A stretch of DNA of 64,000 nt, taken from Henckelia pumila. Its lineage: Eukaryota; Streptophyta; Magnoliopsida; Lamiales; Gesneriaceae. How positions within the stretch are numbered: position 1 is the stretch's first letter; each line of letters opens with the position of its first letter. The notes beneath the pieces were generated by a model that saw only the letters and a list, made by a program, of their open reading frames with translations, was not told the DNA's origin and made no database searches. Made by a program: the position numbers and the translations under genes. The stretch is from assembly GCF_033568475.1 (NCBI RefSeq), contig NC_133121.1, positions 7,626,001 through 7,690,000 of the forward strand, given 5' to 3'. Below, piece by piece: positions 13,609 to 19,932 of the stretch.

Positions 13609-13804
13609 CTAGGGATAGTATTTTTTCAAGTGCTGAGCATTCCATGGCCTTTTACCCTTTTTTCCTTGGGCATCTTCCAAGTAATATGCAGCTATTCCAG
13701 CTTTTCCTATCACTTTGAATGAGCCTTCATACTTGGCCTCTAGCTTTCCTCTTTCCCCTGGATGTTGTATCTTTCGCATAACCAGGTCTCCCTCCTGGAA
13801 AACC
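13609..13804 (-). pseudogene. Integrase C-terminal part of the Tat element
   Basis: The minus-strand frame reads the gypsy integrase tail: EGDLVMRKIQ, then GKLEAKYEGSFKV, then RPWNAQHLKKYYP and stop. The upstream part of the same protein lies beyond the CACTA element at 19933 onward. Confidence 0.85.
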
Positions 13805-14130
13805 CACTACAAGAAAAACGCAAAAAGACAACGGATTTTATCCGTTGTCGTAGAAGGTGAAAAACTATTGTAACTGATGGTGTTGTTAAAAACACGCTCA
13901 ATGACAACGGATAAAATCCGTTGTCTTTTGCCTCAAAGACAACGGATTTTCCCTATGACAACGGATAAAATCTGTTGTCTTTGAGGTCAAAGACAATGGA
14001 TTTTATCTGTTGTCTTTGAAATCAAAGACAATGGATAAAATCCGTTGTCGTTGAGCGTGCTTTTAACAACACCATCAATTACAATATTTTTTCACCCACT
14101 ACGACAATGGATAAAATCCGTTGTCGTTTT
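13805..14130. repeat. Left subterminal repeat array of the CACTA element
   Basis: At least eight copies of the word GACAA(C/T)GGAT(T/A)..., half of them inverted, so that neighbouring copies form short hairpins such as GACAACGGATTTTATCCGTTGTC-like units. A longer inverted pair (GTAACTGATGGTGTTGTTAA near 13871 and its complement near 14062-14083) folds the whole block back on itself. Confidence 0.85.
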
Positions 14131-14313
14131 TCATATAAAAAACAAAAAAAAATTACAAATAATATACAAATTTCAATATTATAAATAAATCAAAATTTAA
14201 AATTTCAAAAATAAAATTTAATATATAATTTTTTAGTATTACAAATCATTCAAAATTAAATTATAATGCAATGCACACTACAGAAAAATACAAAAAAAGT
14301 TCAAATCAAATGA
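14131..14313. other. AT-rich spacer inside the CACTA element
   Basis: Short repeated phrase (TTTCAAATTA-like) between the subterminal array and the first captured exon; no gene seen. Confidence 0.5.
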
Positions 14314-14530
14314 TTAACGGAAGCCGATAACACTTTCTGACTTCAAAATCTGGGAAAAATCGGACAGAGAGACTAGACGAAGATGTCCCTCCAGAAAAAC
14401 CACACTTGTACAGTTTTCACTGGCTACATAATCCACATCCGGTGCCCATGAAATTTTAGAAGAATCGATGTAATTCTTCGTTACACCACATGATAAACTC
14501 AAGAAACCTGTCCCATTGAAAAAACACAAA
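14314..14530 (-). pseudogene. Captured exon of a malectin-like receptor kinase
   Basis: The minus-strand frame contains GFLSLSCG, then DSSKISWAPDVDYV. This matches the start of the malectin-like ectodomain of plant leucine-rich-repeat receptor kinases, where a mature protein begins GFLSL(S/A)CGG followed by ISW..D..YV. Transmembrane and kinase parts are absent; downstream of the fragment the frame is unlike the family. I read it as one exon copied into the transposon. The identity is from motif memory. Confidence 0.6.
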
Positions 14531-15244
14531 TCCTAAATTATAAGAGCACATGACTAAATTATTTCAGGACTTGCAACCAGTTTCTATCTTATCTCTTTCA
14601 TGTTCTCTACTCTGTTCTCTTATACCTGAGTATAATTCAACATATAACGGTAAATTTCAATGGTCAGCAAAAACAAAAGACACGAAATCCCAAAAAAGAA
14701 ACAGTAAAAGCAAAAGATCATATAATTAGGTATCAACTTCCATGAGTGATGAAAGAATGAGCAGTGTCATCATTATATTACAGAGAAGAGAAAAGCAATT
14801 GAATATATGGATGTCCACAGCCAAAAACCATTACAATAGCGGTAAAAAACTATAGATGATATGCATCAAAGTCAATCCTGGGTGCATCCTCCACCCTTCC
14901 TATTATAACAATTATCAAGCAGCCAAAATCATGGCTTTCGTTAGGAGAGGATGAAATATATATAACAACCTACTTGCCAATGCAAGAAAAAAGTAATCAG
15001 ATTCCAGTATTCTACATGGCAAGGGTTTGCAGTTTATCAACATGATAGGGATCCAATGCATCGAGGGTCTATACATAGTTGGGAAAACTATAAAGACCTT
15101 ATTACCTTAGAGAGAGGATAAAAATGAACAAGCAACAGAATCATCTTAAATTATGCAAAATAAACATAGAAGGGAAAAACATGAAAGGAATGATATAGTG
15201 CTGTCACGAGAATCTGTAATCAAACCAAACCAAATACAGGGGAA
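14531..15244. other. CACTA interior, unassigned
   Basis: AT-rich, intron-like sequence with poly-pyrimidine tracts; no coding frame recognised. Confidence 0.4.
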
Positions 15245-15470
15245 AATGATTTACCTGCATCTTTGTAAGCAATCCTTTCTTCTCTTCCTCTTCTAGCTTC
15301 CAGGAAATTAGAGATGAAGGTATAATAGAACAGAATCATGTTAAAAATTTAAAAACAACAATATCAGGCTCAAAAATAAAATATCGATCATTATAGATGT
15401 GCATACCTGTGCAGCTTGATTTTTTGAGAGCTCTTCACCTGAAGTCATGTATCATAGCATGGCGTCTGTC
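15245..15470 (-). pseudogene. Two exon-like coiled-coil fragments in the CACTA element
   Basis: On the minus strand, a frame reading GEELSKNQAAQ ends at a CAG|GTATGC donor near 15415, and a second reading LEEEEKKGLLTKMQ ends at a CAG|GTAAAT donor near 15255. Both are charged and heptad-like, and both sit at plausible splice sites, as in two consecutive exons of a coiled-coil protein. I do not recognise the parent gene. Confidence 0.35.
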
Positions 15471-15633
15471 TCTGACAGCAGTAGCATAGTGGATGTTTGG
15501 ATCTGTTAACTATCCCCCCCCTTTCGTACCATCCCCCAAAAAGGGGGGATAGACTCACTACACTATCACGACCGACTATACCCAACCCTTTAAAGAGCAT
15601 ATTAGAGCATATTCAAAAACTTACTTTATCTTG

Positions 15634-15704
15634 GGCGGATAGCGGGAATCGAACCCGCATCTTCTCCTTGGCAAAGAGAAATTTTACCATTCGACTATAG
15701 CCAC
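15634..15704 (-). tRNA. trnG-GCC: Plastid-type tRNA-Gly(GCC) copy, decayed (nuclear plastid DNA)
   Basis: The minus strand carries the plastid trnG-GCC body: D-arm with AGTCGAATGG, anticodon loop TTTGCCAAG with anticodon GCC, and T-arm GGGTTCGATTCCC. The 3' acceptor side TATCCGCC is normal. The 5' acceptor side reads GTGGCTA where plastids have GCGGATA, leaving one wobble and one mismatch. It is 71 nt without a terminal CCA. The neighbouring bases from about 15500 may also be plastid-derived, but I cannot fix the edges. It is probably not functional and lies within the CACTA interior. Confidence 0.8.
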
Positions 15705-15739
15705 ATATCTTTCCGGCTAAGGAATGGGAAATAAGAACG

Positions 15740-17780
15740 CGAAATTTATTCCGGAAATTTGCAACTTTTAAAAAGCACGATTTGACCCCGTAGTTTCTTG
15801 GAATCAGAACATAATAGATCAGATTTCATGAGATCTTGGGCTAACATCCAGGGAAGTTTCCGGTTTGTTTCCGTCGGATTTAGAGCGGTGATGGCGGCTG
15901 ATTGGCGCTGGTCGGTAGTGAAAAATAATAATAATACAGCAACTATACTAACAAAGATTTTAAACAAAATAAACCTTACTCCTTCAAGTGGACTCGAACT
16001 AAGCTCCATGGCAAGGTCATAGCAACGAAGATTGTTATGAATCTGTCATTGTCAAAATCTATCAGAAGAAGACAATCATAAAACAAAAAAATCAACATTT
16101 AGCTGTTGCTGCAGCAAGCTGAATCACAATTATGAAGTGTCATAGACACCCGTTTCATTCAGAGTATAACCGCGTATACATGTTTGCACGGCCCTAACGA
16201 ATAACTCCAAATACTCACAAAATTATATATGTGTATGCGATGTTCATAAATACCTCGTGGAGGCGATAAAATTGGCAGGAAGAGAATCGAAAAACTCTGG
16301 ACAATACTGAGAGGCCTCAAATCTACCAAGAAGATATAAAGGAACAAAATGATATCACACAAATCATTCATGGAATGAGCTTTCACCAAGTTATTAAAAA
16401 CTTTTGAATATAAATTTCTTGTGAAACACTGAAGAAACATGCTAGCTGAAGTTAAATTTTCAAGAAAACATCAAACACAATCCATAAGAGTTTCCAAAAG
16501 GGCATATCATACAGATTGAATAGTCTTATTATAACTCGTACGATAATAGTCGTATATGACTGAAATTTTAAAAATAAGGAAGTATCTTCAAATCCATTAA
16601 ATGTAATCCCAAAAAGAAAATTATTTGCAAGCTCAAAGCCAGATATTGTCCATCGTACATAACAAATACCCAAACTTGCCAATATTTAATCAAAGTGGTA
16701 AATACGTACATTCGAGATCAACCAAAATAACAACTTTCAAATACAAAAACCGGAAAAGAAGAGAATGAAAACGAAAAAAAATAGAAAAAACAATTGAGAC
16801 CCAAAATCTCGAGCAAAACAATGCATCTGCACATAATCTATTTCAGGTTCGTTCATATGAGGTCTAAGACAGAAGGAAAATTACATACTATATAATATAA
16901 TGAGGTCATAGCTTTAATTGAAGGCTTTGAGCACACAGGAACAGACAAGCAAATCAACCTCGGCACCGCACATGCTGCTCGCCCCTCAGCCACGGCCTGG
17001 AAACCATTCCCGACAACAGCATCACTCATATCCTGCAAGATATATTTTTATTTCCAAACCAGGCATGAGATTTGATATTCATTTTTCCAAGCCCAATGCA
17101 AACTCCCTTGCTGCTTTACTGAATCTTTAACTAAGATTTGACAGATGCATCAGATTCCAACCTGTTCACAAAAGAAAAACACGATTTAACAAAACTACTG
17201 AGGTGCTGTAACATTGGAAACTAGAACCAGAGCTTCACCGGCAAAACAAACAAAATTGCTTGGGTGTCCAGTGTACTCCGCCATTTGATCAAGCCTTACA
17301 TAGAGCAGCTCTTACGTCTTAGCTTAGAACCCAAGATAAACATGGAGGAGTAAAAAAACATGGAAATCAGCTGGAATCAAAGCAATAAAAATGAGGGCAA
17401 ACAGAATATTTATACATATACATTTGCCTCAAGCACTACTTATGGAAAGCCCACATAGCAGCATCCTTCTAAACTAAAACTCGAACAGAATTCATCTGTT
17501 GTCTATTACCATATTTGTTGTAGTGATGCGTATGGATAGACTGACCAATCAAAATATGGTGAAAAGAAAGATGATTTATCACCTGTTGGTTGAAGATGCA
17601 AATATGGGAGATGCTACATGGAGTCCCACCATGGAAGCAGATGATAACTCCATCCTCATAATCAGTCAAGTTAAATTCACCCAGAATAATTCTGGGTAAG
17701 AAAATAAGACATCATAAATATTACATAACGCATAAGAACTTTTCAGTAGGGTTCATTCCAGTTATTGAAACATTGATAAT
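15740..17780. other. CACTA interior, unassigned
   Basis: Mixed composition with short open frames on both strands (15746-16022, 16159-16440, 16452-16682, 16853-17130, 17469-17699). None matches a family I know. Splice-like signals are present, so introns of captured genes are a reasonable guess. The GC-richer block at 16920-17040 has a minus frame reading MSDAVVGNGFQAVAEG, which may be another captured exon. Confidence 0.35.
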
Positions 17781-17880
17781 TTGTTATCTAATAACATGGT
17801 TTATTATTTGGATTTTAGCCACATCAATTCGTGTCGTAAGAACTATTAAAAGGTGTGAATTCTGTATACCTGGACACATA

Positions 17881-18122
17881 ATAGTGCACGTTCCAACTAA
17901 GGTGGGAAACTCTTGAAGGCCACCGTCATCCTTAATGGCATTATTATCCACATTTTCCCATTTGCTAGTGGTTGCTTTTTCGGTAAAGGTATTCCTCGAG
18001 CTATTAGGATTTGGGTGTGAAGTTTTGGAATTTGTAAAGGGTTTGTTGGCAGAATTAGAAAAAGAAGAAGAAAAGTTTTGTGCTTTGACTTGCTGGCGGG
18101 GTTGAGGATTCCTTTCATCCAT
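17881..18122 (-). pseudogene. Captured 5' coding exon of a SAC3/GANP-family gene
   Basis: From an ATG at 18122 the minus strand encodes about 80 residues rich in Ser, Asn, Lys and Pro, ending FPTLVGTCTIMCP and then a splice donor (CCAG|GTATAC). (L/I)VGTC..MCP is the signature opening of the SAC3/GANP domain of mRNA-export and TREX-2 proteins. The rest of that domain is absent. The exon therefore appears copied from its own start codon to its own exon border. Confidence 0.6.
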
Positions 18123-18290
18123 GATCGAAAGCTTGCCTTCTGAATATATTTTTTCAACAACTTGTAGTCGTCTACCTCTGCAACAACCATAGCACAGTCT
18201 TTAGAATCCTGGTTTTCTGTACGAGATGCTCGAGCTGCCATTAGCACGACAGTATCTGCATCAACGCCTTTTGCAAAAACCAGTAAATTA
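18123..18290 (-). pseudogene. Captured fragment of a plasma-membrane H+-ATPase
   Basis: The minus strand around 18190-18272 reads DADTVVLMAARASRTENQD, the conserved nucleotide-binding-domain stretch of plant P-type H+-ATPases (family form: VD.D.VVLMAARA.R.ENQDAID). After this the frame leaves the family (SKDCAMVVAEVDDYKLLKKYIQK) and then runs into the SAC3-like exon. It is a chimeric junction of unrelated genes inside the transposon. Confidence 0.65.
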
Positions 18291-18588
18291 ACAAGAAATG
18301 CTCAACTTTTTTGTCTTGATCTTCACATCAATATTCCAATAAAAATGACTAAAACATGGATAAAAACATGCAAATCATATGATCATAGTTATATTTGACC
18401 GATCTATGTATAATTAATTATTCACATATAGAAACTTAAATATATGTATCTTAGATAAATCTGCACATCACAAAGTAGAAAACAACACATCAGCCAATGT
18501 TCAAGAACGATTCAAAATAATGGAGTAAAAGATACATAGAACCAAAGTATAGCACTAGTTAGCTAGCAACTAATTAACTTACACTTTT
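18291..18588. other. CACTA interior, intron-like
   Basis: AT-rich, no coding frame recognised; separates the H+-ATPase scrap from the TLC-domain fragment. Confidence 0.4.
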
Positions 18589-18990
18589 TTACGGAATGTC
18601 TGAACTCAATTTCTTTGTGTTTTTCTGGGATCTCTCCCTATAGAAGTCAATCCACATATGTAGAACACACAAAATGTTGACCCCAATTCCTGATCCTATG
18701 ACGAAAATCCAAGAAATCCAAGCCCAAGCAGGTAACACGCCATCACCTAAACCACTGGTGAAAAACAATCCTATCTTTTACGCCAGCAGTGGTCCAATAA
18801 TCCCCCTCTCCACACCGTAGTATGCATAAAAAAACGGTGACAAGAACTCAAGCACAGCAGCAGCCTTGGTCGATTTGTTCTTGCGAAATCTAGCTAGGCT
18901 CCATGTGTTCTGGCACATAGTTGTAGCATCAGCAAGAAGCAACATCCCAAGAATCACGTGTAACAACCAGATCAATAAAATCGTACTCAA
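18589..18990 (-). pseudogene. Captured C-terminal part of a TLC-domain membrane protein
   Basis: The minus strand encodes hydrophobic HVILGMLLLAD, then MCQNTWSLARFRKNKST, then FLSPFFYAYYGVERGIIGPLLA, and after one in-frame TAA (18779-18777, replacing a residue before KIGLFF) continues in the same frame through GDGVLPAWAWISWIFV and FYRERSQKN to a natural stop at 18591-18589. This resembles the C-terminal half of plant TLC (TRAM/LAG1/CLN8) domain proteins of the At5g14285 type. The N-terminal transmembrane segments are missing, so it is a fragment. Confidence 0.6.
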
Positions 18991-19135
18991 AAAAAATAAA
19001 AAACTCTAAGTATGAATCAAATAGAGAAATCAAAAAGCTCATTACTCATTTGCTAAATATTAAAAATATTAAAAGACTTTGAAAACAAAATATACTAATT
19101 TTGCAAGGTATCAAGCAAATCTTCAGGAAAACCGT
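18991..19135. other. CACTA interior, intron-like
   Basis: AT-rich sequence between the TLC fragment and the putative first exons. Confidence 0.35.
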
Positions 19136-19470
19136 TCAAACAAAACTTATAATACCAAAACTCAAAGCTAAAGAAGGCTGGAACGGAACAGCAGCCATAC
19201 TCGTCGGATCGTGATTCATACGGGCTGCAAGAACACAACTACAGATTAGATAATTTCTTAAATTTTGAATCCATGCTAGAACATCAAGAATCGACAGAAA
19301 ATCGGCGTTGAAACTCACCGGAGAAGAAGTGCACAGAAGCAAGTCGCAGCAACACTTCGATCGCACGAAAAAAGGGCTCGAATCAGTCGATCTACGGCTC
19401 AAAATGAAGATTATGTTGTGGGGAACAAAACCCCAAAACGGTTTTTTATGATTCAAGAGAAAGGACGGCG
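19136..19470 (-). pseudogene. Captured 5' exons (leader exon, intron, start-codon exon)
   Basis: On the minus strand a GC-richer leader (19460-19319) ends CTCCG at a GTGAGT donor. After about 100 bases a CTTGCAG acceptor (near 19230) precedes a short exon whose ATG opens MNHDPTSMAAVPFQPSL and meets a stop at 19136. Its place upstream of the TLC fragment and its same strand suggest a 5' end, perhaps of that gene. If so, the transposon carries a plant promoter near its right end. The identity is inferred. Confidence 0.4.
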
Positions 19471-19599
19471 ATTCGACGGCAAGAATGGGCGGCTAGGGTT
19501 GAGAGATGAAAAAAGAATCGCGATACAGAGAAGGCTTGAAATGGAATAAGTGGTGCACGTACAAGCAAAGGAAAATAATATCATTTATAAAAAATAAAA

Positions 19600-19929
19600 A
19601 ATAAAAATAAAAATATCAAAGACAACGGATTATTAGATATCGTTGTCGTAGCTTCAAAAAAATCCGCTAAAAGACAACAGTTTTTAAAAACCGTTGTCTT
19701 TGAACTTAAAAAAAATGCACAAAGACAATGTTTGTCAAAAACCGTTGTTGTAGCTCCAAAAAAACCCGCTAATAGACAACGTTTTTTTAAAAACCGTTGT
19801 CTTTGATTAAAAAAAATGCTCAAAAGACAACGATTTTAGTAAAAACCGTTGTTAAAGTGTACAAGACAATGGTTTTGACACAAAACCGTTGTCTTTTGAG
19901 CGTTGTTGAATTAACATTTTCTTGTAGTG
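19600..19929. repeat. Right subterminal repeat array of the CACTA element
   Basis: Alternating GACAACG and CGTTGTC words with AAAACCGTTGTCTTTGA-like spacers, ending with the 13-base terminus. Consecutive units are inverted and spaced about 30-60 bases. Confidence 0.85.
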
Positions 19930-19932
19930 ACC

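Follow-up and report, generated by a model that had tools for sequence, protein, structure and literature searches.

Introduction

Transposons of the CACTA (En/Spm) superfamily that carry pieces of host genes have been described before. The soybean wp allele contains Tgm-Express1, a 5.7-kb CACTA element that includes parts of five unrelated host genes, from exons as well as introns; according to the summary given in that report, alternatively spliced chimeric transcripts were shown, starting from the F3H promoter of its host gene (PMC1947982). Pack-CACTA precedents are outlined for Arabidopsis, rice and maize (PMC8903248), and a capture model has been put forward in which insertions lie next to each other, termini are deleted and ends are switched (PMC8903248, PMC13317346). 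The Tpn1 family of Ipomoea nil is introduced as having one member that gives chimeric transcripts (PMC5105172). In this work we analysed a stretch of 64,000 nucleotides from Henckelia pumila (contig NC_133121.1, positions 7,626,001 to 7,690,000 of assembly GCF_033568475.1; hereafter "the window", in whose coordinates positions are given), in which a preliminary description had recognised a Pack-CACTA element at 13805-19929. We show that this is a real, complete non-autonomous CACTA (En/Spm) element carrying several host gene pieces, and that a second, older right end is preserved inside it.

Results

Structure and insertion site of the element

The element is 6,125 bp long and is bounded by the terminal inverted repeats (TIRs) CACTACAAGAAAA, at 13805-13817 on the plus strand and 19917-19929 on the minus strand, which are identical at 13/13 positions. 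ACC adjoins the left TIR (13802-13804) and the right TIR (19930-19932) as a target site duplication (TSD). Arrays of GACAACGG/CCGTTGTC units are present at both element ends, with short repeats in both orientations; together with their TIRs they occupy 13805-14140 (plus strand) and 19586-19929 (minus strand). The right end is 75% identical to that of L051, a locus carrying the transposase domain TNP2, yet the TIR of L051 differs. No transposase family was detected at E ≤0.1 when the six frames of 14140-19600, the range inside the outer ends, were scanned against Pfam with stops read as X; the single weak match was SWIM (E 0.051). Inspection by eye of open reading frames (ORFs) of at least 150 amino acids in the 20 regions L009-L028 did not reveal a transposase either.

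The element interrupts a Ty3/gypsy-type pol sequence on the minus strand, whose left flank matches SH3_Tf2-1 below the curated cut-off (E 4.7e-5). Empty sites were sought among the best 40 of 251 left-flank and the best 40 of 217 right-flank candidates, which gave 39 left-flank and 39 right-flank matches besides the window. Twenty-four of these could be paired: the flanks overlapped by 3 bp in 20 pairs and by 2 bp in one, and were separated by a 1-bp gap in three. Terminal repeats, a 3-bp duplication and subterminal repeats in both orientations place the element in the CACTA superfamily; the lack of a transposase, host coding DNA with parents elsewhere and cargo that moved as a unit place it among Pack-TYPE (Pack-CACTA) elements. 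The 13-base perfect ends, the ACC duplication, the subterminal inverted arrays and the missing transposase of the preliminary description were all confirmed by these analyses.

Sister copies

Sister elements and parent genes, which the preliminary description had proposed to look for, were both found in the genome (885 Mb, 133 contigs). At least four further copies have the same cargo, making the window element one of at least five, and the same four sisters recurred in three cargo searches where every candidate was scored. Those at C3:82.1M (TSD TGG) and C3:201.7M (TSD TAA) are complete, the copy at C4:93.3M (L011, L030; TSD ATG) is split near 17993 by approximately 7 kb, and the match to the copy at C1:2.8M ends at 18479. 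The C1:2.8M and C3:82.1M copies differ by 0.36% and their left flanks are identical at 446/447 bases, so they were counted as one insertion. The independent insertions thus number four, and they differ from one another by 1.7-2.8%. At a substitution rate of approximately 1.3e-8 per site and year, this corresponds to an age of roughly 0.7-1.1 million years. The insert of approximately 7 kb in the C4:93.3M sister holds retroelement-like ORFs. L017 and L018 (C3:68.9M and 69.0M) are elements of the family separated by approximately 84 kb; they share their matches, and the identities agree as well.

The internal right end and the adjoining gene pieces

A fossil CACTA right end was found inside the element at 17497-17525 (minus strand). 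It is identical at 29/29 positions to the ends in L015 and L016, and at 86% to the final 29 bp of the L051 right end. Its last 16 bases were matched at 16/16 positions, compared to at most 13/16 in 300 Markov sequences. The fossil end is retained in 4/4 sisters covering 17497-17525. Moreover, L024 (AAT/AAT) and L026 (AAA/AAA) combine a left end of the window kind with the same last 16 bp on the right, and have matching TSDs. To the left of the fossil end lies a segment common to other elements of the family (17145-17487; e.g. L040, 93%). At C4:213852050-213852937, the sequence of 17320-17487 is followed, approximately 690 bp further, by the end at 17497-17527. This is the arrangement expected of the older form, and it supports an earlier element ending at 17525.

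To the right, the alignment with L049 begins at 17525 and does not extend beyond it, so that host DNA starts exactly at the fossil end. The pieces that follow, all on the minus strand, either overlap by 2 bp or are separated by 10-27 bp. The first (17525-17851) is an exon with flanking intron sequence, whose donor or relative is L049 (80%); we take it to be from a spinster-like gene of the major facilitator superfamily, and the L049 exon gave no useful PDB or Pfam match. It is followed by the 5' region and first exon of a SAC3/GANP-like gene, splice donor included (17850-18173; donor or relative L045, 83%); the next exon of L045 matches SAC3_GANP below the curated cut-off (E 0.004). Next are part of a plasma-membrane H+-ATPase exon, together with non-coding sequence on its 5' side (18184-18460; relative L046, 89%) and the C-terminus of a TLC-domain gene with its 3' flank (18488-18955; donor or close relative L053, 92.7%). 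The H+-ATPase piece matched PDB 5ksd (E 5.7e-5); the same search gave FANCD2 (E 5e-4) over a stretch that is largely in SAC3-derived DNA. The L053 ORF is intact (PF03798, E 3.4e-15). Against Pfam, the cargo pieces themselves gave E 0.011 for the TLC piece and nothing meaningful for the others. The series then runs into a backbone (18954-19560 onwards) that ends at 19929 with a right end different from the fossil one. End switching is supported by this arrangement, in which host DNA starts at the fossil end and is followed by abutting pieces and another family backbone. In L046 (C1:121442900-121444200), H+-ATPase exons with in-frame stops adjoin a TLC scrap; the order is that of the window element, and L046 is perhaps an older chimera.

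The left half of the cargo

Donors or relatives were located for six gene pieces, together approximately 2.75 kb of the 6.1 kb. In the left half, a coiled-coil gene piece with intron sequence (14578-15462, minus strand) has its donor or relative in L038 (84%), presumably a TMF/golgin-like gene. The coiled-coil and spinster-like pieces hold intron sequence, which indicates capture from DNA. An exon-1/intron-1 piece of a host gene occupies 16412-16968; 16412-16839 and 16927-16968 match L047, its donor or relative, at 86-88%, its minus strand was taken from the apparent splice site, and it gave no Pfam match. This piece overlaps 16247-16601, a piece common to the CACTA-like mosaic L048 (91-94%). 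A segment common to 17 other loci at 87-91% (14280-14530, minus strand) contains a malectin-like exon scrap (ORF 14314-14532).

The preliminary inventory was thus partly confirmed. The TLC-domain C-terminus, the H+-ATPase scrap, the SAC3-like first exon and the coiled-coil exons are all present, and the spinster-like and 16412-16968 pieces had been overlooked. The malectin-like exon is a weak case: all four of its PDB matches at E ≤5 are ANXUR1/2, but the best has E 0.15, and there was no Pfam match and no donor in the genome.

Two short stretches of this half recur elsewhere. A piece of approximately 57 bp at 16266-16325 is found in 16 other loci (among the best 40 of 61 candidates); seven of the 16 have a TNP2 domain approximately 3.5-4.1 kb away on the opposite strand (among the best 150 of 570 TNP2 candidates), and the piece is possibly a leader on the transposase side of a second CACTA lineage. 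The stretch 15775-15912 was found in eight other loci (76-88%).

The right-end leader

The region 18954-19560 (minus strand) consists of a leader with a GT-AG intron, made of family backbone and a dispersed repeat. Six other loci match it over the full length at 86-89% and 25 more match it partially (among the best 40 of 87 candidates). Sequence from within 19146-19560 is found at 73-90% identity in these 31 loci, including L052 and L054, where no coding parent was visible by eye (no domain search was made). Twenty of the 31 loci also match in the right-end search, whose query overlaps 19400-19560; two of the 20 end short of the terminus. Judged by this distribution, the leader is dispersed repeat sequence and not a demonstrated host promoter, and the captured promoter near 19460 of the preliminary description was not upheld. 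All three sisters covering the leader retain its GT and AG. The TNP2 gene of L051 runs leftwards from the right end, as do the gene pieces in the window element. At L052 (C3:201928400-201929600), the relative of the leader adjoins an ORF with a zinc-knuckle-like motif (by eye), which suggests a nearby reverse-transcribing element.

A plastid-type block in one copy

A block of 239 bp (15491-15729, minus strand) with trnG-GCC and spacer is present in this copy only. It was called as tRNA-Gly GCC (Rfam, 52.5 bits) and, judging by the tRNA and the spacer, we assume a plastid origin. Identity to L050 is 97.7% over 15488-15702; the L050 sequence continues on both sides and, in our reading, presumably includes trnfM. 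The remainder (15703-15729) has no match in L050, and three other loci match 15697-15732, two of them at 97% and the third at 92%. The block is absent from 4/4 sisters, all of which have one junction. L021, L023 and L040 likewise join 15488/15489 to 15728/15730, and C4:216937299-216937630 joins both sides of the block, by coordinates. The block is missing in the sisters and its sides are also joined in distant loci, which indicates a later insertion and not cargo. Consequently, the trnG listed in the preliminary description does lie inside the element, but not as captured sequence.

Strand and coding capacity

All seven assigned gene pieces are on the minus strand, for which the two-sided probability is 0.016; counting H+-ATPase and TLC as one leaves six pieces and gives 0.031. 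The result agrees with the single strand of the preliminary description. This is a small sample of assigned pieces, in which the strand is less sure for the malectin-like scrap and the 16412-16968 piece; 15730-17033 is partly assigned, and plus-strand pieces are possible there. Some splice sites are kept: the GT of SAC3 exon 1 and the GT and AG of the leader are in place. The acceptor AG of the spinster-like piece is lost.

Three pieces are broken. The spinster-like piece has, besides the lost acceptor, a 2-bp gap; in the coiled-coil piece there are one stop and a 1-bp gap, and the TLC piece has acquired a stop through a TAC-to-TAA change. Intact or selected reading frames were therefore not seen across the cargo, and a protein product is unlikely. 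The SAC3 exon is open. With the split C4 copy omitted, the other four copies differ pairwise by 0 synonymous and 0-4 replacement changes; these are too few for a selection test, and there is no sign of selection. Compared to the donor, the ratio is 0.48-0.54, a value that mixes donor constraint with drift.

Discussion

The window element is probably a Pack-type non-autonomous CACTA element whose mosaic was built in steps, with capture by a switched right end. An older element with the same left end would have terminated at 17525 and would have lost its right subterminal array. Transposase made elsewhere, which would also have mobilised the element, could then have paired the left end with a right end lying farther away, turning the intervening DNA into cargo. 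The finished mosaic would have been copied to at least four sites, and the window copy alone would later have gained the 239-bp plastid-type piece, most simply through break repair. Several points weigh against this sequence of events. L015 and L016 lack matching TSDs as paired (TGT/CCG and TCG/TTC); the best 150 of 570 TNP2 candidates included no identifiable autonomous element sharing the TIR; and the left end of the second element was not found, which leaves the two-element step incomplete. The order of events is deduced from the overlaps, and no intermediate was found. The patchwork at 15730-17033 is left unexplained by end switching, and the H+-ATPase and TLC cargo, which adjoin in L046, may have been a ready-made chimera.

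Alternatively, the cargo could have been stitched in as filler DNA, during gap repair after excision and by template switching between unrelated loci, with no second right end involved. The 10- and 27-bp gaps between pieces, the many short matches within 15730-17033, and the L048 piece, which is colinear except for 381 extra bp in the window element (16602-16982), fit such repair. However, the spinster-like piece begins exactly at a complete fossil TIR, and all DNA rightwards of TLC forms a long backbone common to other elements, as end switching predicts. We regard the filler-DNA model as rather unlikely, although it may hold for part of the element alongside end switching. As for the trnG block, its position within the element and the orientation of its tRNA, on the same strand as the cargo, are what capture with the remaining cargo and subsequent loss in the sisters would give; with one junction in all four sisters and in more distant loci alike, a deletion would have had to recreate that junction repeatedly, and we consider this history extremely improbable.

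Leftward transcription from the right-end leader is possible. The common strand of the seven pieces, together with the leader GT-AG and the SAC3 donor retained in the sisters covering them, would suit an expressed chimeric gene, spliced and kept for its RNA or protein product. Against it stand the stops, gaps and lost acceptor in three pieces and the lack of any sign of purifying selection in SAC3 among the sisters, and we judge such a gene to be very unlikely. These alternatives do not exclude the switched right end as the best explanation. The strand data also fit a more speculative idea, which we consider quite doubtful, namely that capture in this family is filtered by strand and that pieces survive mainly when their exons lie along the direction of right-end transcription. 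This would accommodate the seven pieces and, in the cousin L051, the TNP2 gene, all of which run leftwards from the right end. If true, the filter would let read-through RNA splice normally, making the element less harmful or allowing it to evade silencing. Among the papers listed by our literature searches, none evidently dealt with strand bias in CACTA cargo, judging by titles and the opening lines of abstracts.

As a Pack-CACTA mosaic, the window element bears a capture scar of unusual clarity, and its kind is already known. An old end at the boundary of host DNA, in an assembly that also includes the sisters and donors, constitutes a natural, datable record of the capture step. The 239-bp piece found in one copy only is a warning that not all of the DNA inside such elements was captured by them. 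Like Tgm-Express1, as it is summarised in its report, the window element is a CACTA element carrying pieces of several unrelated host genes; unlike Tgm-Express1, which sits in F3H and for which transcripts were shown, it sits in a retrotransposon and is known from sequence alone (PMC1947982). With the Tpn1 family it shares, by description, a place among the non-autonomous relatives of En/Spm, and conserved ends that enclose host sequence (PMC5105172). It resembles the Pack-CACTA/Pack-TYPE elements, as outlined in the published accounts, in the lack of transposase, the CACTACAA-type ends and the multi-locus cargo, and its fossil end fits the capture model of neighbouring insertions and terminal deletions proposed for them (PMC8903248, PMC13317346). 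A possible difference from the Pack-TYPE elements described there is that in the window element and its sisters the inner TIR has been kept exactly at the boundary with host DNA.

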